NCBI GenBank assembly: GCA_012517435.1
Contig: JAAYUY010000207.1
Span: 1-34,940, forward strand
Direction: 5' to 3'
DNA length: 34,940 nt
Source of the DNA: Sphingobacteriales bacterium
GTDB lineage: Bacteria > Bacteroidota > Bacteroidia > CAILMK01 > JAAYUY01
Part shown: positions 1 to 34,313 of the stretch, one piece after another
Layout of the letters: every line of letters starts with the position of its first letter
How positions within the stretch are numbered: position 1 is the stretch's first letter
Translations under genes and position numbers: made by a program
The notes under the pieces: generated by a model
Seen by the model: the letters and a program-made list of their open reading frames with translations, nothing else
Database searches by the model: none
What the model was told of the DNA's origin: nothing

Positions 1-1542
1 GGAAAGTTTTTCTTTGACCGTTCCATCGGCATTGACGGTTACCGGAATGAATTCAAATTCAACATTATAATTTTCAGCAACCATTTCAAGGTTTCTGAGA
101 AAATTACCCTGAGCATAAGCTTTGATAAGCTCTGTGACATCTTTAATTATCTGATTTCCTTTTGTTTCCGAATAACTTTCATTGTAAAGTATCATGTCTT
201 TGGCTGAAAAAACCTGAAGGTTGTTTCCCCTTGTATATTTGTTCCCATATTCGATAATCAGGTCAGGATTTTGTTCGGTAAACTGAACAAAGGCAAGGCT
301 TTTCAAGCTTTCTTCCATTTGCTTTTTCAGATTTTCTGCTGCAATATCGAGTTTGACACTTACTTTCAAATCACCATAACTTTGCTCGGTTACAAAGACC
401 CAGTAGTTCTTAATGTTTTCTTTAGATATATCTTTATCAAGGCTGATCATGGCATTGAAATTAGTGGAAGATACCACTTTTCCTGTAGCAAATGGTGCTG
501 ATTTTGAAGGATCGGTGGTTCCGATCGGGTAAAGTCCGACTTTAGAATTTTCATAAATACCAACGATTTTGCCTCCATTAATCTGAATATTGTTGGCATC
601 CTGCCACTTTTCAATGATGTAATATGCTTTCTGTTCGACCACATTACCACCGAAAACAGGGACATCCATGCTTCCTTCAGCCTGAGGTTGCTGATTGGGT
701 GCCAACACACTCATATCGACTTTTATTTTTTCAAACAAAGCACGGTAAGTTGTATTTTTATCAGATGTTCTCATGGCTCTGTTGAAGGCATAGGAAAGAG
801 AGCCAACCGAATTGCCTTCTTCATCAAAAGCTTCGTAATTTAACTGGCTTGGAGATGCTCCGCTAAGGACAAACATGGGGGCTATTCCCTGATTGGCTCC
901 TCTCGAAGCATTGCCTTTTGTAATCATTCCACTTTCTTTTGCAGCACTGGTAACAGGGTTGTACCCGGCAGGACACATTTTTTCAAAAGTTCCCCTCGCT
1001 TTGGCTATCCCTCTTGTGGCTGTCCCCGAATGGCAGGCATCAAGAATAACGAGCAGGTTACCTGTTTCACCGAGCTTAAGTCTTAATTTGATGAACAGTG
1101 AATCCAGCTCATCATCACGTAGGTGTTTTTCTCCTTCATAAACACCCTTTTCATATCTCATATGGGCATCAAAAGGCACCAATGCTTCATCAAATCCATC
1201 CATTTCATCTCCGTTGTCATCCATAATCTGCTGGCCGTGTCCTGAATAATGAAAAACCACTACATCTCCCTTCTGTGCTCGTTTTGTCAGATCATTAATG
1301 GCTTTCACAATTCCATCTTTGGTAGCTTCTGCATCCTGAATAATTTTTATATCGGTAAACCCCTGAAGTTTCAAAGCATTTGTAATCAGAGGAATATCCT
1401 TCTCGGAACTAATGGTTCCCCATCCCCCTTCTTTCGGATATTTTCCAACAGCAACTACAAGGGCTAGTTTATTTTGTGCCAATACCAGATTTGACATTAA
1501 GATACCGGCAATCAGCAGGATAACAAGATTTAACCTTTTCAT
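1..1542 (-). CDS. Caspase-like (C14 / metacaspase family) secreted protease, 3' end outside window
   Basis: This frame is open from an ATG at 1542 to the window edge, giving 514 codons with no stop. The N-terminus is a signal peptide (MKRLNLVILLIAGILMSNLVLAQ), so the mature protein should act outside the cytoplasm. The caspase-fold signatures are clear: HYSGHG places the catalytic His near residue 102 and DACHSG the catalytic Cys near residue 170. An acidic, Gly-rich stretch (DDNGDEMDGFDEAL) lies between them, as in bacterial metacaspase-like proteins. The p20-like domain ends near residue 290. The remaining 220 or so residues are a C-terminal region I do not recognise. The start lies 11 bases after the stop of the upstream serine protease gene, so the two are almost certainly co-transcribed. 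The fold is certain; the substrate is unknown. Confidence 0.9.
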   Translation of the reverse strand, partial: MKRLNLVILLIAGILMSNLVLAQNKLALVVAVGKYPKEGGWGTISSEKDIPLITNALKLQGFTDIKIIQDAEATKDGIVKAINDLTKRAQKGDVVVFHYSGHGQQIMDDNGDEMDGFDEALVPFDAHMRYEKGVYEGEKHLRDDELDSLFIKLRLKLGETGNLLVILDACHSGTATRGIAKARGTFEKMCPAGYNPVTSAAKESGMITKGNASRGANQGIAPMFVLSGASPSQLNYEAFDEEGNSVGSLSYAFNRAMRTSDKNTTYRALFEKIKVDMSVLAPNQQPQAEGSMDVPVFGGNVVEQKAYYIIEKWQDANNIQINGGKIVGIYENSKVGLYPIGTTDPSKSAPFATGKVVSSTNFNAMISLDKDISKENIKNYWVFVTEQSYGDLKVSVKLDIAAENLKKQMEESLKSLAFVQFTEQNPDLIIEYGNKYTRGNNLQVFSAKDMILYNESYSETKGNQIIKDVTELIKAYAQGNFLRNLEMVAENYNVEFEFIPVTVNADGTVKEKLS

Positions 1543-1553
1543 TTTTTTTAATT

Positions 1554-3047
1554 TTAATACCAAAGAGTTTCTTTTAAGATATTTTCATCTCCTGAAAGAT
1601 AATGACGCATGGTCTGAACATTTTCAATATTGTCGTTGGGCTTTAACAAATAAAAGTCAACCACTCCGGCAATACCGCAAATTCTCATAACAGCACCGAA
1701 ATATTTCAGTTGTTCGGTTTTCCACATATTAACGAAATCCTTATTGACAATTCCTGCAGCGATAAGATAGTAGTTTGAATAGGAAGGAGAAGAAGGTGAG
1801 TTAGAGGCTTTGTTCAGAGGTGCACTGCTGTATTTATTCCCCTGGTATTTGTAATATTTGTTTTCATTAAGAGATACAAGCAGGTTGGGTTGTTTTTCGA
1901 CTAAACTCATTTTGGTTATCTGATCCATTACATACAGACCAATATCCTCCAATTGCTGATCTAATAATTCGCCAGCAGTAATGCTGACTTTTTTTACGGT
2001 ACTTCCTGATTTTAAGGTCAATACAACCGAAGCACCGGGTAGCACTTTTTCAAATTCACCAAGAACCTCTTCCACACTTCTGACTTCGACATTGCCGACA
2101 TGTGTAATACCCCATCCCATGTATTGATTAAAGATAGTGGCTGCCGGTGAATTTGGTATTATACCTGAAATAACAGGTATTGAATCAGACAACACGTAAT
2201 CATAGGTACTTTTGCTGATGTATCTGTAATTTGATTTTTGGGAGATTTCAAGGCCGAAATAGGCTCTTCTGACCCTTCCATTGTTGTTAATGATATCATT
2301 GACAACTCTTTCTGCAATTTTAGCCTCAAGGGCAAAATTTATTTGAGACTGGATAACCTGTTCACCTGTCGGAGAAGTGGCATAAGCTATTTTGGTGTTG
2401 ACCCCGGCTACTTTGCCGGCCTGATCTACCAGAGGCCCGCCACTGTTACCCCAAATAATGGTGGCAGTTGTTTGAAGGAATCCGAATTTTCCTGTATAAC
2501 CACCTCTGACCCTGTTTTTGGCACTGATAATACCACTCGAAACAGAATAGGGAAATTCTCCAAGCGGGTTGCCAATGGCATAAACAGATTCGCCAATACG
2601 TGGTTCTGTTTTTTTGAAGTCGAGGGTGGTAATTTCTGCCCCCGGCTGTGTGATAAACTCAAGAACAGCAATATCATAAAATGAATCTCCTCCGAGAATT
2701 CTGACATCATAAGCTTTTCCGCTGATGCTGTAAACCTTGATGCTCCCTCTTTCATCTGAGGCATCCTGTACCACGTGAGCATTGGTAATAATGTATTTTT
2801 TACCGTTTCTGGTAATTACAAAACCGGAACCCGAACCTTTTGCTCCATCGAGGCGAAGGGCATGGTCGTAGGCCATATCCACGTTGTTATCTCCGCGATA
2901 ACCAAGAGTTTTATTGGCATAATCCATTTTATAAACAGCTACAGTTACCACTGCACTCAGCGCATTCTCGAGCATATCGGAAACTGTCTGAGCATGAAGT
3001 GAGATGGTGATGAAGATGGCTGTCAATATTGCTGATATCTTTTTCAT
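1554..3047 (-). CDS. HtrA/DegP-like secreted serine protease with one PDZ-like domain
   Basis: This 497-residue protein has a signal peptide ending LHA|Q near residue 20. The trypsin-fold triad is visible: His91 in TNAHVV, Asp125 in YDIAVLE and Ser202 in GNSGGPL. After the protease domain, RAYFGLEIS (about residue 261) starts a PDZ-like region to about residue 355, ending in VVLTLKSGSTVKKVSI. This order is that of the S1C (HtrA/Deg) family with a single PDZ domain. The last 135 or so residues are an unrecognised tail, including a Ser/Asn-rich stretch near 415. It lies between the small secreted protein gene, with an intergenic hairpin upstream, and the caspase-like gene downstream. DegS-type relatives cleave anti-sigma factors in the periplasm; whether this one acts on the anti-sigma-like protein of the same cluster is inference. 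Confidence 0.9.
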   Translation of the reverse strand: MKKISAILTAIFITISLHAQTVSDMLENALSAVVTVAVYKMDYANKTLGYRGDNNVDMAYDHALRLDGAKGSGSGFVITRNGKKYIITNAHVVQDASDERGSIKVYSISGKAYDVRILGGDSFYDIAVLEFITQPGAEITTLDFKKTEPRIGESVYAIGNPLGEFPYSVSSGIISAKNRVRGGYTGKFGFLQTTATIIWGNSGGPLVDQAGKVAGVNTKIAYATSPTGEQVIQSQINFALEAKIAERVVNDIINNNGRVRRAYFGLEISQKSNYRYISKSTYDYVLSDSIPVISGIIPNSPAATIFNQYMGWGITHVGNVEVRSVEEVLGEFEKVLPGASVVLTLKSGSTVKKVSITAGELLDQQLEDIGLYVMDQITKMSLVEKQPNLLVSLNENKYYKYQGNKYSSAPLNKASNSPSSPSYSNYYLIAAGIVNKDFVNMWKTEQLKYFGAVMRICGIAGVVDFYLLKPNDNIENVQTMRHYLSGDENILKETLWY

Positions 3048-3070
3048 AATTTTGATTTTTTAGCTTTTTT

Positions 3071-3125
3071 ACACTTCGGGCACTGCAGGAATAACCTATT
3101 CATCTGCAGTGCCCGTCAAAAGTGT
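3071..3125 (-). promoter_or_regulatory. Long intercistronic hairpin between the small secreted protein and protease genes
   Basis: A perfect 12-base inverted repeat (CGGGCACTGCAG at 3077-3088, CTGCAGTGCCCG at 3104-3115) is extended outward by ACACTT/AAGTGT after a 4-base bulge, and inward by GAAT/ATTC. It begins just after the stop codon of the 143-residue protein gene and ends 24 bases before the protease start. On the transcribed minus strand it is followed by an A-rich stretch, not a U-run, so it is not a classical intrinsic terminator. A role in mRNA 3'-end protection or partial attenuation, raising the small protein relative to the proteases, is inference. Confidence 0.7.
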
Positions 3126-3128
3126 AGT

Positions 3129-3560
3129 TTAGTAAAGGGTTACATTCCATTCCTGGTTGTCGCAGGATTTGGTCTGCGGTCCCCAGGTAAGTTTGCTTCC
3201 GTCATCAAAGAGAGCTTCTGCATAAACTTTTGTGCTGCCGCCTGAAACGGTTACAGAACCTTTACCCCATGGTGCAACATATCCCTGCAGTACATTATTG
3301 ACATAGCAGTCAATGTAGTAGTTAGTCCAGTTGTCAAAAGTAATGTAACAGCTTCCACCACGTGTGGCTGTTCCACCTTTTGTAGCTGGGCGAACTGCTT
3401 CAGGAGCTTTTGTTGCACTGTTCAAAGGTTTTTCAACGGCAGTACCTCTTGAGGCAGCTGCTTTGGTTGATGACATCTGATCTGTGAGTGGGAGTACTTG
3501 AGCGTACAGAAATCCACTTACTAAGAAACCTGCGAATAAGGTTAAGAAAACTTTTTTCAT
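3129..3560 (-). CDS. Small secreted protein of unknown function with a basic linker and C-terminal beta-rich domain
   Basis: I do not recognise a named family. The 143-residue protein has a signal peptide (residues 1-20, ending LYA|Q). A Lys/Arg/Ala/Thr-rich, probably disordered linker follows (about 30-69), with basic residues spaced every few positions. The compact C-terminal domain (about 70-143) is rich in aromatic, Gly and Val residues (ITFDNWTNYYID, GYVAPWGKGSVTVSGG) and contains Cys71, Cys85 and Cys133. The pattern suggests a small beta-sandwich. It sits in the sigma-factor operon, upstream of the two proteases. The unusual linker makes it a plausible substrate or prodomain-regulated product, but this is conjecture. 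Confidence 0.8.
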   Translation of the reverse strand: MKKVFLTLFAGFLVSGFLYAQVLPLTDQMSSTKAAASRGTAVEKPLNSATKAPEAVRPATKGGTATRGGSCYITFDNWTNYYIDCYVNNVLQGYVAPWGKGSVTVSGGSTKVYAEALFDDGSKLTWGPQTKSCDNQEWNVTLY

Positions 3561-3593
3561 TGCATTAAAATTTATTGGTTAATAAAATAGTTC

Positions 3594-4115
3594 CTAATTA
3601 CAAAAATAGTTAATAGCATCTTCCACAACAGTCAATCCCTTAAAATATGCTTTTTTCATATAATAACAACCTTCTGTTGTATTTTCCATTTCCAGATAAA
3701 GGCGGCCTTTGTTGTAAATGGCCACAAGATAATTGCTGTCAAGATCGATGGCTTTGTTGTACAAATTCATTGCTTCCTCAAACTTTCCGATTCTGACATT
3801 CATCATAGCCAGATTGTTGTAGTACACCGGCATGGGTTTAATTGAAATTGCTTTACTATAATCGGTTAATGCCTGTTCGTTATTGCCAAGTTCATCCTGA
3901 GTCAATCCTCTTCTGAAATAGGCATCCGCAAAATCAGGCCTCTGTTCTATTGCTAAGCTAAAGTAGTAAAGAGCACTGTCGTATGAACGTTCACTGAATT
4001 TTTCCATTCCCTTGCTGAAGTATATGTCGGCTTTGTCCTGACTAAAGGCTGGTGTTATGCTGGCGGTGATCAATATGCTGACTGTGGTTAACATCATGGT
4101 TCTAAATTTTCTCAT
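3594..4115 (-). CDS. Exported TPR-repeat protein
   Basis: A tetratricopeptide-repeat protein of about 173 residues. I chose the ATG at 4115 because MRKFRTMMLTTVSILITASITPAFSQ then forms a normal signal peptide. In-frame ATGs also exist at 4133 and 4154 and would add a basic leader. About four TPR units follow (ADIYFSKGMEKF, ADAYFRRGLTQDEL, PVYYNNLAMMNV, LVAIYNKGRLYLE), filling almost the whole mature protein, which ends in a Cys-containing tail. TPR proteins act as protein-protein scaffolds. Here the gene lies between the anti-sigma-like gene and the secreted protein/protease genes, so it may assemble the exported components. No catalytic function is visible. Confidence 0.85.
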   Translation of the reverse strand: MRKFRTMMLTTVSILITASITPAFSQDKADIYFSKGMEKFSERSYDSALYYFSLAIEQRPDFADAYFRRGLTQDELGNNEQALTDYSKAISIKPMPVYYNNLAMMNVRIGKFEEAMNLYNKAIDLDSNYLVAIYNKGRLYLEMENTTEGCYYMKKAYFKGLTVVEDAINYFCN

Positions 4116-4171
4116 CTTTTCTCTTTTTTTCATTTTGATTGTTAAATACCACATCTTTCAAAAAGGTAAAT

Positions 4172-5035
4172 TTATTGTTTTAAGATTTTTAAAATTGATT
4201 CAGCCTGTGCTGAATATGGGTTCTTTTCAACTGTAAGTTTCTGAAACTCCAGAATAGCCTGTTCAATATTTTCAAGCTTTAAACAGGCCATTCCTGCATA
4301 CCAGATACTTGGGTAATAAAATTTGAATGAAGGTTCAGCCTGGAGTTTTAAAAGCAAACTCAATGCAGATTTGTTTTTATCTAAAGAGAGTAGAGTCATG
4401 GCATAGTAAAACTGAGCTTCTTTTATATCCTTTAGATTTTTCAATAACTCTTCTGCTTTCAAATAGTCTTGCTGATCGTAGTAGTACATTGCCCTTTCAA
4501 AACTATCCACCGGGATTTCTCCCCTGCTTTTGGGGAATACTTTGTTGGGATATTGGGTGTAGTAGTCATTATATGCATTCATTGCAAGCAGTTTCATGCG
4601 TTCACCGGCAGGTTTCTGCGGCTCAACAGGTTTATTAGCAGATTGTGAAGTATCTTTTGGTGAAATCAGATTGGAATCGGTTTGTTGTTCCTGAGCCAAA
4701 AATTCTTTATGTTTTTGTGTTTGCTGAATTTTTATAATAACAGAAATGCCCACTACTACGAAAAGGACGATAGCAGCAGCAATAGCCAAATAAGTAGACA
4801 GTTTTCTGCCTGAAAGCAAGGTTTTTTCCTGTAAATCAATTTCTTTGAATTTTTCACGGAGATAATCTTCTGAAGCAGCTTTAATTCCTTTAACGATACT
4901 AAGGTAGATTTCAAAATCTGCTTTTAATTCCGGGTCTTCCGACAGTTTTTTATCGAAAGATTCTTTTTCACTTTCGCTAAGTTCGCCTCGGATATAACTG
5001 TCAAAAAGTTCAATATTGCTGTTTGTTTCTTCCAT
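4172..5035 (-). CDS. Membrane anti-sigma-like protein with C-terminal TPR-like sensor region
   Basis: This 287-residue protein begins with a short acidic helical domain (FDSYIRGELSESEKESFDKKL) typical of Bacteroidota anti-sigma factors. It lacks the HxxxCxxC zinc motif of the classical ZAS family. One transmembrane helix (about 81-103) follows, then a polar linker rich in Gln, Ser and Lys, then TPR-like helical pairs (about 170-287: AMYYYDQQDYLKAEELL, AQFYYAMTLLSLDKNKSA). The predicted topology puts the sigma-binding domain in the cytoplasm and the TPR region in the periplasm. It starts 30 bases after the sigma-factor gene, the usual arrangement for a sigma/anti-sigma pair. Its role as anti-sigma factor is inferred from topology and position. 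Confidence 0.8.
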   Translation of the reverse strand: MEETNSNIELFDSYIRGELSESEKESFDKKLSEDPELKADFEIYLSIVKGIKAASEDYLREKFKEIDLQEKTLLSGRKLSTYLAIAAAIVLFVVVGISVIIKIQQTQKHKEFLAQEQQTDSNLISPKDTSQSANKPVEPQKPAGERMKLLAMNAYNDYYTQYPNKVFPKSRGEIPVDSFERAMYYYDQQDYLKAEELLKNLKDIKEAQFYYAMTLLSLDKNKSALSLLLKLQAEPSFKFYYPSIWYAGMACLKLENIEQAILEFQKLTVEKNPYSAQAESILKILKQ

Positions 5036-5065
5036 GAAATTAAAATTCAGACTTAAATACCATGT

Positions 5066-5641
5066 TTAATTGGTTTGTAAATTAATTCTGCTGAAATTTT
5101 TTAGCACAGCCTCCTTAAGTTTTTGAAAACAATTGTATTTACTGCTTTTTGCACTGTCAACATTGGTATAATTCAGCTCAAAGGCTATCGTTTCCATGCT
5201 TTTTTTCTCATAATAAAATGCATATAGCAGTTTAAAACATTTCTCCCCAATCCGTTTTAATTCCTGTCGTATTAATTCCTCGTTTTCATTCATTTCCATC
5301 TTTGAAAACAAATCAGCATCCTTATCCTGATAGGTATTTTCCAGATGTTCAGGCATTCTGACTTCATGCTGTTTTTTACGTATTTCTTTACCTATCAGAT
5401 GAATTCCTATTTCAAACAAATAGGTTTTTGGCTTACAGGTAAATTGTGTTAATCGTCCTTCTACTATATTGTTTCTGAATGCCAATACAGCATCCTGATA
5501 AATTTCTTTGAGAATTTCATGGTCTAATCCATATTTTTTATAAGCATAAGCAATAAATGAATTACGGTTTTCTGTATAAAACCTTATTAAAACTTTTTCA
5601 TTACCGTTCCTGATTTCCTCCAAAAGTTTCTGAGGATTCAT
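5066..5641 (-). CDS. ECF-like sigma-70 family RNA polymerase sigma factor
   Basis: At 191 residues this matches ECF sigma factors. Residues about 10-100 form region 2 (EILKEIYQDAVLAFRNNI, then FTCKPKTYLFEIGIHLIGKEIRK). Residues about 130-185 form region 4 with a helix-turn-helix (SMETIAFELNY, SAKSSKYNCFQKLKEAV). There is no region 3, as expected for the ECF group. It is the first gene of the minus-strand cluster running to the caspase-like protease, and a -7 element lies just upstream. ECF sigma factors usually activate their own operon when an extracytoplasmic signal releases the anti-sigma factor; self-regulation is therefore likely but not shown here. Confidence 0.88.
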   Translation of the reverse strand: MNPQKLLEEIRNGNEKVLIRFYTENRNSFIAYAYKKYGLDHEILKEIYQDAVLAFRNNIVEGRLTQFTCKPKTYLFEIGIHLIGKEIRKKQHEVRMPEHLENTYQDKDADLFSKMEMNENEELIRQELKRIGEKCFKLLYAFYYEKKSMETIAFELNYTNVDSAKSSKYNCFQKLKEAVLKNFSRINLQTN

Positions 5642-5664: not shown

Positions 5665-5672
5665 CAAAGATA
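5665..5672 (-). promoter_or_regulatory. Bacteroidota -7 element for the sigma-factor operon
   Basis: On the minus strand the sequence reads TATCTTTG, a full match to the TAnnTTTG -7 element, 23 bases before the sigma-factor ATG. No convincing TTG element is seen at the expected upstream distance, so the promoter may be a housekeeping promoter with a weak -33 box or may be partly sigma-specific. Confidence 0.5.
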
Positions 5673-29025: not shown

Positions 29026-30351
29026 ATGAATCAGATTATTTCAGGCTTTTCAAAACTCAGCAAAGATGATAAGATAAAACTGGTAACCTCGAAGCTTTTC
29101 GACCCCTCATCTGCTGAGAACCTATTAAAATCCTACTGGCACAGATATCCGGAGGTTCAGAAACTTTTGGATGAATTCAGCGAAAACACTTTGACCAATT
29201 ATTTTATCCCTTATGGCGTAGCTCCTAACTTTCTGATAAATGGAAAATTCTATTTTGTCCCCATGGTCATTGAAGAAAGTTCGGTGATTGCCGCTGCGGC
29301 CAATGCTGCCAAGTATTGGGCTTCACGCGGAGGATTTCATGCTCAGATTATATCATCTGTCAAAATAGGACAGGTTCATTTTATCTGGAAAGGTGATTAC
29401 AATAAGCTAAATTCGGTATTTAATGAATTGAAATTCAGGCTAAAAGATGAAACCCAGCACATCACGGCCAATATGATAAAAAGAGGGGGCGGTATTCTTG
29501 ATATACAGCTGGTAGATATGCGTCACGAAATTGAAGACTATTTCCAGTTAAAAGCTACTTTTGAAACGGTAGATTCGATGGGTGCCAACTTTATTAATTC
29601 CTGCCTCGAAGACTTTGCCCAGATTTTAAAGGATTTCATTGCCAATCATCCAGCTTTTGATGAAAATGAACGGGATTGCAGAATTATCATGTCTATTTTA
29701 TCAAACTACACACCTGAATGCCTTGTCAAATGCTGGGTAGAATGTGATTTGCCTGAAATGGGCATGTTTGAAGATGGAGACACACCTGAATCATTTACCT
29801 GGAAATTTGAAAGAGCCATTCGCATTGCACAGGTCGATGTCAACAGGGCTGTTACCCACAATAAAGGTATTTTCAATGGAATTGATGCTGTGGTTATTGC
29901 TACCGGCAACGACTTTCGTGCTGTCGAAGCCTGCGGACATGCCTATGCCTCAAGAGATGGAAAATACAGAAGTCTGACTACTTTCAGCCGCACCAACAAC
30001 AGATTCTACTACTGTCTTACCGTTCCTATGGCTCTTGGTACCGTTGGCGGACTGACTTCCCTCCATCCTTTGTCGAAATTTTCACTTGAATTACTGGGTA
30101 ATCCTTCAGCTAAAGAACTCATCATGATTGCTGCTGCTGCCGGATTGGCAAATAACTTCGGAGCTGTTACCACTTTGGTCACAAAAGGAATTCAGAAAGG
30201 GCACATGAAGATGCACCTGCTCAATATTCTAAATCATTTTGAAGCAACTGAAGAAGAAAAAAATAAAGCCATTGAATATTTCAAAACCCGGAAAGTATCC
30301 TTTAATGCAGTGAGACAACTGTTGAATGAAATCAGGGATAACAGGGCATAA
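29026..30351 (+). CDS. Hydroxymethylglutaryl-CoA reductase (class II type)
   Basis: This 441-residue enzyme reduces HMG-CoA to mevalonate, the committed step of the mevalonate route. Class II features are seen: the catalytic Glu in MVIEESSVIAAAANAAK (about residue 83), the Lys in HNKGIFNGIDAVVIATGND with the nearby catalytic Asp, and the His in KGHMKMHL near the end. No membrane region is present. Class II enzymes are often labelled degradative after the Pseudomonas mevalonii enzyme. Here the linked kinase and decarboxylase genes argue for biosynthesis. The downstream GHMP kinase gene overlaps its end by 26 bases, a sign of translational coupling. Confidence 0.95.
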   Translation: MNQIISGFSKLSKDDKIKLVTSKLFDPSSAENLLKSYWHRYPEVQKLLDEFSENTLTNYFIPYGVAPNFLINGKFYFVPMVIEESSVIAAAANAAKYWASRGGFHAQIISSVKIGQVHFIWKGDYNKLNSVFNELKFRLKDETQHITANMIKRGGGILDIQLVDMRHEIEDYFQLKATFETVDSMGANFINSCLEDFAQILKDFIANHPAFDENERDCRIIMSILSNYTPECLVKCWVECDLPEMGMFEDGDTPESFTWKFERAIRIAQVDVNRAVTHNKGIFNGIDAVVIATGNDFRAVEACGHAYASRDGKYRSLTTFSRTNNRFYYCLTVPMALGTVGGLTSLHPLSKFSLELLGNPSAKELIMIAAAAGLANNFGAVTTLVTKGIQKGHMKMHLLNILNHFEATEEEKNKAIEYFKTRKVSFNAVRQLLNEIRDNRA

Positions 30352-31273
30352 TAGATCTTTCTCTTCCCATGGCAAACTGCTTCTGACAGGGGAATATCTT
30401 GTACTTCACGGAGCCGATGCTTTTGCAATTCCTTTGAAAAAAGGCCAGAGATTAATTATTTCGGAATCTCAGTCAGATGAAAGTATCTTACAATGGGAAA
30501 GCCTTGAAGGTGAAGTGAAATGGTTTTCAGCTTCATTCAGTACAACAGATTTCAGTATAATTCAGACAAATTCTTTCCAAATAGCCAAAAGGCTATCCGG
30601 AATTTTAACTGCCGCCAGAGAACTGAATCCCTCTTTTCTGACTAATTCCAATAAAACTGAAGCCCAATCAATCCTCGAATTTAACAGGGAATGGGGTTTG
30701 GGATCAAGTAGTACACTAATTTCAAATATTTCGTTTTGGGCTGATATTAATCCCTTTCAACTGCTTGACATGACTTTCGGGGGTTCGGGTTATGATGTGG
30801 CCTGTGCCAGAAGCTCCTCAGCCTTGATTTACAACTTAAATAAAAGAAATTCAATCAAATACATCGATTTTAAACCGGATTTCCGCAACCACCTGACAAT
30901 TGCCTATCTCGGACATAAACAAAATACAGCCAGAGAGATAAAAAATATTTCAGTCAAACCACCAGACAAAAAACAACTTTCTCAGATTTCGGATATCAGC
31001 AGGAAAATTGCCTTATCCAAAAGTCTTGACTATTTTATTTCATGCCTGAAAGAAAACGATTCAATAGTTTCGTCTTATCTGCAAAGGCCAACTCTCCATG
31101 CTGCAGAATTCAGTGATTTTATTGGATATATTAAAAACATGGGTGCATGGGGTGGCGATTTTATTCTGGCTGCCAGCCCTGAAAGTCAGGATTATGTAAA
31201 CCACTATCTTGATGCTAAAGGAATAGGTGTCAGGTTTTCATACGATGAATTGGCTTTGTCTCCTACTTCCTGA
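30326..31273 (+). CDS. GHMP kinase, probable phosphomevalonate kinase of the mevalonate cluster
   Basis: This 315-residue GHMP kinase has the N-terminal SHGKLLLTGEYLVLHGADAFAIP, the glycine-rich ATP loop WGLGSSSTLISN and GGSGYDVACARSSSAL. The last resembles the GYDIA-type GHMP kinases of Bacteroidota, with Val for Ile. A C-terminal MGAWGGDFILAA motif corresponds to GHMP motif 3. In a cluster with HMG-CoA reductase, diphosphomevalonate decarboxylase and mevalonate kinase, the missing step is phosphomevalonate kinase, so this is its most likely role. That is inference. It overlaps the reductase gene by 26 bases and the convergent receiver gene by 11 bases. Confidence 0.88.
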   Translation: MKSGITGHNRSFSSHGKLLLTGEYLVLHGADAFAIPLKKGQRLIISESQSDESILQWESLEGEVKWFSASFSTTDFSIIQTNSFQIAKRLSGILTAARELNPSFLTNSNKTEAQSILEFNREWGLGSSSTLISNISFWADINPFQLLDMTFGGSGYDVACARSSSALIYNLNKRNSIKYIDFKPDFRNHLTIAYLGHKQNTAREIKNISVKPPDKKQLSQISDISRKIALSKSLDYFISCLKENDSIVSSYLQRPTLHAAEFSDFIGYIKNMGAWGGDFILAASPESQDYVNHYLDAKGIGVRFSYDELALSPTS

Positions 31274-31658
31274 TGTATTTATCGCATTTTTTAAGCAGGA
31301 TTTCCTTTTTAATCGGTTTTGTGATAAAGTCATTGCAACCTGCTTCGAAAACCTGATGTTTGTTATTATCATAAATATAGGCTGATTGTGCAATAATGGG
31401 TAAATCAGGACGAAATTTCCGTATTTCACGGGTAGCCTCGTAACCATCTATTCCGGGTAACCTGATGTCCATTAAAACCAGATCAATTTCCGGATGTTCT
31501 CTGCATATTTCTATCGCTGTTTCTCCATCCATAGCCCACATCACATTGCAATTTGTGCGCTTTAAAATGCTGTCAATCAACAGATGATTTGTTTCAATAT
31601 CTTCAACAATTAAAACCAACTTGTCATACCAATCAAATTCAAGTTTTCTGTCAACCAT
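31263..31658 (-). CDS. Single-domain response regulator (second of tandem pair)
   Basis: A 131-residue receiver domain with a short N-terminal lead (KLEFDWYDKLVLIVEDI). The phosphoacceptor is Asp64 in LVLMDIRLPGIDGYEAT, the switch residue lies in IIAQSAYI and the conserved Lys in FITKPI. No output domain is present. It is closely similar to the upstream gene, sharing WAMDGE, the LMDIRLP...DGYEAT core and a KYxxK ending. It lies 4 bases after that gene, so the pair is probably a tandem duplication in one transcript. Both run against the mevalonate genes. Confidence 0.93.
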   Translation of the reverse strand: MVDRKLEFDWYDKLVLIVEDIETNHLLIDSILKRTNCNVMWAMDGETAIEICREHPEIDLVLMDIRLPGIDGYEATREIRKFRPDLPIIAQSAYIYDNNKHQVFEAGCNDFITKPIKKEILLKKCDKYIRK

Positions 31659-31662
31659 TTGA

Positions 31663-32103
31663 TTAGTTTTTTTTCTTCATGTATTTGTCGATCATTTTGA
31701 GCATTTTTTCCCGCTGCAGGGGCTTGGTAAGCAAATCATCGCACCCGACATCGGTAACTTTATACTTTTCCTCTTCCATCACATAGGCTGTCTGGGCAAT
31801 TATCGGCACCGACTGATTGAATTCCCGTATTTTTTTTGTTGCCTCATAACCATCCATTTTGGGTAGCCTGATGTCCATCAGTATCAGGTCTATATCTGGA
31901 TTTTCCTGTGCCAGTTCCACTGCTTTTTCTCCATCCATTGCCCAAAGCAATCTGGCACTTGTTGGCCTGAGTATCAGATCTATCAGCATGTGGTTGCTTT
32001 TTTCATCTTCCACTACGAGTATCTTTTTGTCAAACCACTTGTATTTTCGCTTTGAATCTGATTTCTTTTTTTTCCATGTCCCTTTTGTAATTTTTTCAAC
32101 CAT
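31663..32103 (-). CDS. Single-domain response regulator (first of tandem pair)
   Basis: A 146-residue receiver domain with a strongly basic N-terminal extension of about 24 residues (TKGTWKKKKSDSKRKYKW) before KKILVVEDE. The phosphoacceptor is Asp77 in LILMDIRLPKMDGYEAT, the switch residue lies in IIAQTAYV and the Lys in LLTKPL. No output domain is present. The basic extension could bind nucleic acid or a partner, which is speculative. It is the upstream member of the two-gene unit that lies antisense between the GHMP kinase and diphosphomevalonate decarboxylase genes. No histidine kinase is adjacent. Confidence 0.93.
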   Translation of the reverse strand: MVEKITKGTWKKKKSDSKRKYKWFDKKILVVEDEKSNHMLIDLILRPTSARLLWAMDGEKAVELAQENPDIDLILMDIRLPKMDGYEATKKIREFNQSVPIIAQTAYVMEEEKYKVTDVGCDDLLTKPLQREKMLKMIDKYMKKKN

Positions 32104-32284
32104 AGCTTTTTTTTTAAAAAAAAATGGGTTTTTTCAGTTCTGCATGCAATTAATTACAAGCGTAAAAATACGGTTTTTTAGTATTTTAAATAACACATGA
32201 AATTTTTTGTTTTGTTGTTAATTTGCCATGAAACAATTTACTGCTTTTTATTGTTTATTAAACATATAGCCAATTTCTTTGATA

Positions 32285-33343
32285 ATGACAATTAGTGAAA
32301 AATCAGGAACAACTTTCTGGCAATGTCCATCTAATATTGCTTTGATCAAATATTGGGGAAAATATCCCGGTCAACTTCCGGCTAATCCTTCCCTGAGCAT
32401 GACGTTAAATACCTCCGTAACAAAGATGAAAATAGACTATGAATTTGATGCCCGACTTGATTCCCCTGAAATATCTTTACTTTTCAACCATCAGGCTGCT
32501 CCTCGCTTTGAAGAGCGTATCATAAAATACCTTCCTTCCATCTTTGATATTTTGCCTGCGATACGTCATTGCCGTTTACATATTCTTACCGAAAATACTT
32601 TCCCGCATTCTGCCGGAATTGCTTCCTCTGCCTCCGGTATGGGTGCTCTCGCATTGAATCTTTATGAGATTAATGCTAGTATCACAGGCATTTCTGAACC
32701 GGAAGCAGACAAATGGAAAAAGATTTCAGAACTGGCACGATTAGCTTCAGGTAGTGCCTCGCGTTCAGTCTATGGCGGATGGGTTACATGGGGAAAAATC
32801 GATCGTTTACCTGAAACTTCAGATTTGTATGCTTCTCCGTTAAATACCGGTATTCATTCTGAATTCCTTTCACTCAGGGATTTTATCATCATTGTTGACA
32901 AAACTGAGAAAAAAGTTTCCAGCAGTGCCGGACATGCCCTGATGAATAATCATCCTTATGCTGCCTGCCGCTATGCTTCAGCAAGAAAAAATATTTCTGA
33001 TTTAATTGACATATTGGTTGCCGGTGATGTTGAACAATTCATACAAATTGTTGAAAATGAGGCTTTAACACTACATGCACTTATGATGCAATCGACACCT
33101 TCCTACCTGTTGCTTAAGCCTGATACACTCCGGATTATCGAACTTATTCAGGATTTTCGTGAACAAAATAAAATCCCTCTTTGTTTTACGCTCGATGCTG
33201 GTCCAAACATTCATTTGTTATTTCATGAAAATGTTGAAAAGAAAGTTATGGTGTTATTGAAAGAAATATCAGACCTTTGCAGCAAAATTGAAATACTGAA
33301 GGATGGCATTGGACAAGGTCCTCAAACGTTATCAAAATCTTAA
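32285..33343 (+). CDS. mvaD: Diphosphomevalonate decarboxylase
   Basis: This enzyme of about 352 residues converts mevalonate diphosphate to isopentenyl diphosphate with ATP. It shows NIALIKYWGK with PANPSLSMTL, the ATP loop SAGIASSASGMGALAL, the substrate-binding GSASRSVYGGWVTW and LDAGPNIHLLF with the catalytic Asp. Presence of that Asp and of the Lys/Arg residues favours a true decarboxylase over the mevalonate-3-kinase variants. I chose the ATG at 32285; a TTG two codons earlier is less likely. The stop is 1 base before the mevalonate kinase ATG. Confidence 0.94.
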   Translation: MTISEKSGTTFWQCPSNIALIKYWGKYPGQLPANPSLSMTLNTSVTKMKIDYEFDARLDSPEISLLFNHQAAPRFEERIIKYLPSIFDILPAIRHCRLHILTENTFPHSAGIASSASGMGALALNLYEINASITGISEPEADKWKKISELARLASGSASRSVYGGWVTWGKIDRLPETSDLYASPLNTGIHSEFLSLRDFIIIVDKTEKKVSSSAGHALMNNHPYAACRYASARKNISDLIDILVAGDVEQFIQIVENEALTLHALMMQSTPSYLLLKPDTLRIIELIQDFREQNKIPLCFTLDAGPNIHLLFHENVEKKVMVLLKEISDLCSKIEILKDGIGQGPQTLSKS

Positions 33344-33344
33344 A

Positions 33345-34313
33345 ATGGAAAAATCCGAAAGAGAATTTTTTGCGAAAATCCTGCTTTTTGGCGAGTACGG
33401 GGTCATTTGTAATTCCATGGGATTAAGCATTCCCTATCTTGAATTCAAAGGAAAACTGACTTTCTTCAATGAAAAATCCGGAGTATCTGCTGAATTTGCC
33501 CAAAAATCAAACAAATCCATCCGCCAGTTTTTCAAATACCTTTCAAATCTTGCCGAAAAAAACGAGTTGAAAACAAGACTAAATTTCGAAGAATTCAGCA
33601 AAGAACTCGACCGGAATATTTTCTTTGATTCCAACATTCCTCAGGGTTTTGGCATCGGCAGTTCAGGTGCATTGGTTGCCGCCATTTACGACAGATATGC
33701 CATCGATAAAATTCCTGCTGAAAAAAAACACACCAAACGTGAATTAAGAAAACTAAAGGATATTTTTGCACAGATGGAATCCTTCTTTCATGGAAAAAGC
33801 AGTGGCCTCGACCCAATCAACTGTTACCTGAACAAACCCCTACTGATTGAAAATATTTCAACCATTTCCGAAATAGGCTTAAATAAAATTGCTACTGAAG
33901 AAAAAAGCGGTATTTTCCTGATTGATACCGGCACTGTCGGAAACACCGGACCTCTGGTCAATTATTTCCTCGAACAATGTAAAGATGATAAATTTTATTC
34001 CTCTCTTCAGCAGGAAATGATTCCGGCTAATAATAAATGCATTAAATCATATATTAAAGGTGAGCTTTATGATTTTTATGTTCATGTCAAAGCTCTTTCA
34101 AAATTTTTACTTCATCATTTCGGGCCTATGATTCCCGATCCTTTTATTGAAGTCTGGAAAAAAGGCCTTGAAACCAGTGCTTATTATCTTAAATTATGTG
34201 GTTCCGGTGGTGGTGGCTATTTACTGGGTTTTGCCCGTGACCTCGAATATGCCAAGGAAGAACTCGAAAAACTTCAGGTTAAAATCATCCCTGTTGCAGT
34301 AACCTCTAAATGA
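33345..34313 (+). CDS. Mevalonate kinase-like GHMP kinase
   Basis: A GHMP kinase of about 322 residues that should phosphorylate mevalonate. Motif 1 is FFAKILLFGEYGVI (GEYG rather than the usual GEHA), the ATP loop is GFGIGSSGALVAAIY, the catalytic-Asp motif SSGLDPINCYLNKPLLIE and motif 3 LCGSGGGGYLLGF. I chose the ATG at 33345 (MEKSEREFF), directly after the decarboxylase stop. A longer reading from 33303 would overlap that gene by 41 bases and adds only a non-conserved N-terminus. Assignment as mevalonate rather than phosphomevalonate kinase rests on the DPIN motif and on cluster logic. Confidence 0.9.
   Translation: MEKSEREFFAKILLFGEYGVICNSMGLSIPYLEFKGKLTFFNEKSGVSAEFAQKSNKSIRQFFKYLSNLAEKNELKTRLNFEEFSKELDRNIFFDSNIPQGFGIGSSGALVAAIYDRYAIDKIPAEKKHTKRELRKLKDIFAQMESFFHGKSSGLDPINCYLNKPLLIENISTISEIGLNKIATEEKSGIFLIDTGTVGNTGPLVNYFLEQCKDDKFYSSLQQEMIPANNKCIKSYIKGELYDFYVHVKALSKFLLHHFGPMIPDPFIEVWKKGLETSAYYLKLCGSGGGGYLLGFARDLEYAKEELEKLQVKIIPVAVTSK

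Follow-up and report, generated by a model that had tools for sequence, protein, structure and literature searches.

The 34,940-nucleotide window analysed here is the whole of contig C207 (JAAYUY010000207.1) from a 3.19 Mb Bacteroidota draft genome (Sphingobacteriales bacterium, GCA_012517435.1), and it begins with a set of genes that includes an exported caspase-fold protease. A sequence-only reading had described six consecutive minus-strand genes at 1-5641, encoding a sigma factor, an anti-sigma factor, a tetratricopeptide repeat (TPR) protein, a small secreted protein, an HtrA-like protease and a caspase, with both catalytic sets intact. We confirmed the six open reading frames (ORFs), and found His91/Asp125/Ser202 of the HtrA-like protein to be invariant in four relatives and His102 and Cys170 of the caspase to be invariant among its relatives. 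The genes, with protein lengths in amino acids (aa), are as follows:

5066..5641, minus strand: extracytoplasmic function (ECF)-like sigma factor, 191 aa (ORF call; homologues lie near related caspases)
4172..5035, minus strand: anti-sigma-like protein, 287 aa, with a cytoplasmic N-terminal part, one transmembrane helix, a periplasmic linker and a TPR region (ORF, domain searches)
3594..4154, minus strand: exported TPR protein, 186 aa as called (ORF, Pfam); its true start is probably the ATG at 4133
3129..3560, minus strand: small secreted protein, 143 aa, with a signal peptide, a disordered segment with two [ST]RG (Ser/Thr-Arg-Gly) sites and a C-terminal beta sandwich, residues 70-142 (ORF, alignment, structure model)
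1554..3047, minus strand: exported HtrA-like serine protease, 497 aa, with His91/Asp125/Ser202 and a C-terminal domain of its own (ORF, Pfam, alignment)
1..1542, minus strand: exported C14 caspase (orthocaspase), first 514 of 667 aa (ORF, Pfam; the rest on contig C123)

The intergenic gaps are 30 bp (sigma/anti-sigma), 17 bp (anti-sigma/TPR), 33 bp (TPR/small), 81 bp (small/HtrA) and 11 bp (HtrA/caspase). The caspase gene is cut off by the window edge, and its remainder was found on contig C123, whose end is identical to the first 141 bp of the window. In a protein search, this overlap stretch occurs at only two places in the genome, C207 and C123, the join being an assembly overlap rather than a sequenced junction. 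C123 completes the 667-aa caspase and encodes a seventh, downstream gene for a 1208-aa exported TPR-CHAT protein, in which the CHAT domain (E = 2e-60) follows the TPRs, with the catalytic His in HIATHG (match starting at 1046) and the Cys in SACETG (match starting at 1122).

Pfam matches above cutoff include C14 (E = 5e-23), Trypsin_2 in the HtrA-like protein (E = 6e-31) and the TPR domains. The sigma factor scores weakly against TIGR02937 (40.0 bits, cutoff 42.9), while a homologue from another locus, L032, passes Sigma70_r2. The anti-sigma gene adjoins the sigma gene and encodes one transmembrane helix, read by eye, and its product gave weak matches only to anti-sigma families. The HtrA-like protein matches the Do/DegS families; it has no Pfam PDZ match, and its TIGR02037 alignment, which extends to residue 367, scores 163 bits, below that model's cutoff of 416. 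The small secreted protein has no Pfam match. Its structure model shows little order as far as residue 68 and then forms a confident beta sandwich, for which Foldseek returned nothing at E 1e-3 or better. The top matches were AlgF and generic beta sandwiches, and the weak matches include actinoporins and a pneumolysin domain; since these matches are weak and generic, we assign the domain no function from them.

A mix-and-match gene neighbourhood in Bacteroidota

An alignment search with the caspase across 84,980 species genomes gave 402 relatives, the best 80 of which, all from Bacteroidota, were kept for neighbourhood counts (vicinity being ~10 kb for sigma). Near these 80 caspases lie genes for the small protein (27), a sigma factor (23), CHAT (21), another C14 protease (21), an anti-sigma (16), HtrA (13) and TPR (5), and the corresponding counts within the same operon as the caspase are 27, 6, 14, 11, 6, 10 and 5. 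For sigma, 23/80 compares with a baseline of ~10 matches per 3.5 Mb genome, or ~0.06 per 20 kb, the profiles used for the baseline and for the neighbourhood counts being similar, not identical. A further exported family of ~510 aa, without a Pfam match, adjoins the caspase in 24 loci (e.g., L034:10133-11746).

The gene set is thus a mix-and-match neighbourhood in Bacteroidota and not a fixed operon. The six genes do not hold together as a fixed unit, since a sigma gene shares the operon at only 6/80 caspase loci and caspase and protease genes often occur apart from the sigma and TPR genes. By the refuting condition set in the sequence-only reading, the strict six-gene claim fails, although a modular set does recur. 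It is whole in L032, which has on one strand sigma, anti-sigma, a TPR-caspase (replacing TPR-CHAT), small, TPR, HtrA and caspase, and partial in L018 and L143, which have TPR-small-HtrA-caspase. In G002 and G003, two genomes of the same family, the sigma/anti-sigma pair and a TPR-small-HtrA-caspase block are split between contig ends. These ends match in orientation without overlapping, and the pair therefore likely adjoins the rest of the set, with the adjacency itself unproven. Searching close relatives by phmmer with the whole TPR-CHAT protein as query gave no match, because in G002 and G003 its place is taken by a TPR-caspase.

The association of the small protein with the caspase also holds at the level of whole genomes, where a full-length caspase is present in 12/14 genomes with the small protein versus 15/296 overall (Fisher p = 5e-17, phylogeny ignored). 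In four of the 12 co-occurring genomes the two genes are on different contigs, and in G108, G205 and G295, all from a single genus, the small gene sits in a sigma-outer-membrane protein-small-TPR operon, with the single full-length caspase on another contig. This tie joins the caspase to an otherwise unannotated secreted protein family. Of the two exceptions, G047 has a divergent caspase next to its small gene, and the other is G291.

Three related arrangements were observed in passing. In L141, L142 and L144, one operon holds sigma, a probable anti-sigma, an outer-membrane barrel, a small Arg-Gly (RG) protein and TPR, and the caspase lies on a different contig. In L145 (genome G158, with eight C14 matches), three tandem caspase genes adjoin a small RG protein gene. 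At L074:5498-7054 and seven other loci, mostly flavobacterial, the gene upstream of the caspase, at the place where the window has HtrA, encodes an exported protease of the trypsin-like kind that has ankyrin repeats and, close to its N-terminus, a TRG.

A shared [ST]RG motif at flexible joints

The caspase, the small protein, the partner protease and the anti-sigma have in common an [ST]RG motif at flexible joints. The sites outside the proteases of the window are:

4520..4525, minus strand: R171-G172 of the anti-sigma (FPKSRGEIP), in the periplasmic linker (homologue alignment)
3447..3452, minus strand: R37-G38 of the small protein (AASRGT), first cut-site candidate (alignment, model)
3357..3362, minus strand: R67-G68 of the small protein (ATRGGS), second cut-site candidate, directly before the beta domain (alignment, model)

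To assess enrichment, relatives were collapsed at 60% identity and residues were shuffled within each protein. Observed and shuffled counts of [ST]RG were 17 vs 0.8 in the small proteins, 90 vs 3.1 in caspase tails, 109 vs 11.7 in caspase bodies and 17 vs 2.8 in the 510-aa operon partner. The reversed GR and [ST]KG controls were not raised, and neither was [ST]RG in exported background proteins (23 vs 22.2). Chance is thus far from accounting for how often and where the motif occurs, and the pattern is specific to this set.

The two sites of the small protein are in stretches that are unstructured or modelled with low confidence, and they flank the propeptide, with the second abutting the beta sandwich. 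The caspase has RG sites at 177, 183, 214 and 438 in its window part and at 626 and 644 on C123. Three segments of the caspase structure model have a pLDDT below 50 (178-181, 205-224 and 650-663), with an RG in each. The caspases carry an RG-NPxE-RG tail that floats at the C-terminus; across 31 of them, the RG positions in the tail shift with insertions and deletions and the flanks vary, as is expected of a linear site. Nearly all CHAT partners have an RG 3-21 residues before the CHAT domain, a distance that depends on where the seed was cut, and an RG also precedes the C14 domain in the partners of L024, L032 and L083. Among alignable cases, RG precedes CHAT in 3/3 from genomes with this caspase, versus 1/6 from genomes without it (overall p = 0.04), so that close CHAT relatives in the latter mostly lack the site. 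The linker of the anti-sigma has SRG in the window, G002 and G003 and a TRG nearby in L032, which are the four full-set loci (two split across contigs), and no [ST]RG occupies that position in the remaining aligned anti-sigmas. The HtrA-like protein has R51-G52 (window 2892-2897), invariant in four aligned relatives and not of the [ST]RG type, in a stretch that we take to be where DegP has its LA loop.

A putative exported caspase cascade and its alternatives

Based on these results, we propose, with a probability of roughly 0.6, that the caspase is an Arg-specific orthocaspase which, once exported, processes both itself and its partners to maturity at [ST]R|G; it may also cleave the anti-sigma and so feed back on its own expression. 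The sequence-only reading had offered an envelope proteolytic cascade, one exported module tied to the sigma/anti-sigma pair, and this is still the best reading, with the shared [ST]RG sites now linking the proteins. The caspase appears to be Arg-specific and of the C14B orthocaspase type, and it is the likely cutter because metacaspases are the nearest solved structures to its profile, C14B enzymes cut after basic residues (PMC6426788), and D168, two residues before the Cys, is invariant in the alignment. In TbMCA2 two pocket Asp residues matter for this specificity (PMC6426788), and the second S1 pocket Asp here is probably D49, a candidate.

Under this model, the sigma/anti-sigma pair would drive the small protein, the HtrA-like protease, the caspase zymogen and TPR-CHAT, all exported, with the small protein probably in excess over the proteases owing to a hairpin 3' of its gene, described below. 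Active caspase would cut after Arg, at Ser/Thr-Arg|Gly in flexible joints. Its self-cleavage would fall next to the catalytic Cys, within the p20 loop and at two points of the C-terminal tail, much as metacaspases mature; several internal maturation cuts, with cleavage after Lys/Arg, are described for the Candida glabrata metacaspase (PMC9622860). In the small protein, cuts at either end of the propeptide would free the C-terminal beta domain, and a cut in the TPR-CHAT or TPR-caspase partner would fall just before its protease domain. A cut in the periplasmic linker of the anti-sigma could release sigma, closing a positive loop. HtrA would most likely act alongside, in further cutting or in clearing products, its role being the least certain.

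A more far-reaching version, which we hold only tentatively and think somewhat doubtful, is a self-contained exported cascade with a cut-site code, in which the caspase would bring itself, a secreted effector and another caspase-fold protease to maturity and would cut the anti-sigma, forming an all-or-none switch outside the inner membrane. If true, the logic of this switch would be comparable to that of clotting or apoptosis cascades.

Several points weigh against the proposal. What is observed is the gene content, its recurrence, the enrichment and placement of the motif and the co-occurrence of small protein and caspase; cleavage, and with it the identity of the cutter, the order of the cuts, the feedback step and the role of the freed beta domain, is what we infer. 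Most related caspases have no linked sigma gene, and the co-occurrence p-values are uncorrected for phylogeny; G291 has the small protein, but a full-length caspase of this type was not found there at E 1e-15. R181-G182 and R187-G188 (L024 numbering) are invariant and close to the active site, and may therefore be structural. In HtrA, [ST]RG is not raised (1 vs 2.6 expected). The CHAT comparison with and without a caspase is small, in addition to the dependence of the distances on the seed. The anti-sigma motif is found in four sequences, three of them from one family, and the feedback step is therefore a proposal only; other anti-sigma homologues often keep a Gly without Arg at the linker position, so that the linker Gly may be structural.

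Ordinary envelope quality control would explain the locus differently, with HtrA and the caspase degrading misfolded exported proteins under an ECF response like that of sigmaE/RseA/DegS, the small protein a periplasmic or surface part and RG incidental. The Do/DegS matches of HtrA and the sigma with a transmembrane anti-sigma, the usual envelope-stress layout, fit this explanation, as does cleavage of RseA by E. coli DegS (cited in PMC10028731). However, the motif is enriched and placed beyond chance in a set-specific manner, and across genomes the small protein tracks the caspase, whereas HtrA is found in only 13/80 caspase loci; we therefore consider quality control unlikely. The alternative that another Arg-specific enzyme, gingipain-like or trypsin-like, processes the RG sites, with the caspase as just one substrate, could draw on the flavobacterial loci, where an exported trypsin-like protease accompanies the caspase, and on the HtrA-like gene adjoining the caspase in the window. 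HtrA enzymes, however, are not known to prefer Arg, and most RG-rich caspase loci lack a trypsin-like gene. Moreover, self-processing of metacaspases after Arg/Lys (PMC9622860) fits the sites within the caspase, and a different enzyme thus seems very improbable.

A death-like pathway had also been suggested for this locus, and we found no direct support for it. In its most concrete form, the caspase would release from the small protein a beta domain with membrane activity, as proteases activate gasdermins, for self- or neighbour-killing. The propeptide plus beta sandwich architecture, the actinoporin and pneumolysin matches and the discussion of bacterial caspases in death pathways (PMC3501461) are compatible with this, but no Foldseek match reaches E 1e-3, with AlgF and generic beta sandwiches on top, no transmembrane or amphipathic segment is evident in the small protein, and the protein also occurs in sigma-outer-membrane protein-small-TPR operons with no killing-type neighbour. 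We regard killing as highly unlikely.

Maturation by an exported orthocaspase also has to be set against published systems. Metacaspase operons (PMC3501461) and caspase genes that neighbour ECF sigma and TPR genes (PMC8195603) have been described, as has cleavage of a sigma-factor inhibitor by TPR-CHAT (PMC10028731). Orthocaspases and metacaspases (C14B) share with the present enzyme the His-Cys dyad, a metacaspase-like p20, the acidic Asp before the Cys and, in its homologues, a C-terminal DUF4384, a domain reported together with p20 and trypsin-like domains (PMC6426788), whereas the signal peptide, the repeated [ST]RG, the floating RG-NPxE-RG tail and partner genes with the same site are differences. 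EACC2 caspase systems, for which autoproteolytic activation was proposed, also have an ECF sigma and a TPR gene (PMC8195603), but, compared by description, they have the EACC2 domain and a variable C-terminal sensor, while the proteins here are exported; an EACC1-type caspase model scored 34.9 bits on the window caspase, against a cutoff of 140. Craspase (Csx29 TPR-CHAT, Csx30 and CASP-sigma; PMC10028731) likewise combines a TPR-CHAT protease with an ECF sigma and its inhibitor, proteolysis relieving inhibition, but is RNA-triggered with Cas7-11, whereas the set here is exported with a transmembrane anti-sigma; no cas genes were seen by eye among neighbouring ORFs, and no systematic cas search was run. 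The sigmaE-RseA-DegS pathway resembles the locus in its sigma factor, transmembrane anti-sigma and HtrA-type protease. In the present locus, however, the candidate for the cut is the caspase, with an Arg-Gly site as its target, whereas DegS is anchored in the membrane and is not known to be encoded within such a set.

A literature search, mostly without subscription journals, returned no paper on an exported arrangement with a shared cut-site motif. For a bacterial caspase, the sequence itself points to candidate substrates, to where they would be cut and to a possible feedback step, and these are testable because [ST]RG-tailed relatives of the caspase occur in cultured bacteria such as Leeuwenhoekiella, Winogradskyella, Lacibacter and Hymenobacter.

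Control elements and other features

Four putative control elements accompany the genes:

5665..5672, minus strand: TATCTTTG, fitting the -7 box TAnnTTTG, 23 bp before the sigma start codon (read by eye)
5053..5083, minus strand: AATTTAC-N14-TGGTATTTAA, copy 1, preceding the anti-sigma gene (a candidate target of the sigma factor or control element)
4142..4172, minus strand: AATTTAC-N14-TGGTATTTAA, copy 2, upstream of the TPR gene (genome pattern search)
3070..3126, minus strand: strong RNA hairpin 3' of the small gene, -32.7 kcal/mol, z -7.0, a possible attenuator (folding)

The Bacteroidota -7 box has the consensus TAnnTTTG, and because of the box upstream the sigma gene may have its own housekeeping promoter. 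The hairpin between the small gene and HtrA has counterparts 3' of the small gene in 7/7 relatives tested, and a single uniform transcript should therefore not be assumed; their position suggests that the small protein is made in larger amounts than the proteases. We rejected an ordinary intrinsic terminator for the window hairpin, which has no U-run after it, a U-run being present in some relatives. The repeated element, AATTTAC-N14-TGGTATTTAA, has only two copies genome-wide at ≤1 mismatch, both in this operon. At least two matches at ≤3 mismatches arose in 8/100 window shuffles, and its significance is uncertain because the pattern was picked after both copies were seen.

Elsewhere in the same genome, on contig C69 (L115:1-3071), a second CHAT gene faces, in convergent orientation, another sigma/anti-sigma pair from the same families, and the CHAT-sigma association therefore occurs twice in this genome. 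In the window itself, a gene run at 29026-34313 looks by eye like a mevalonate pathway cluster, with HMG-CoA reductase, GHMP kinases and diphosphomevalonate decarboxylase.

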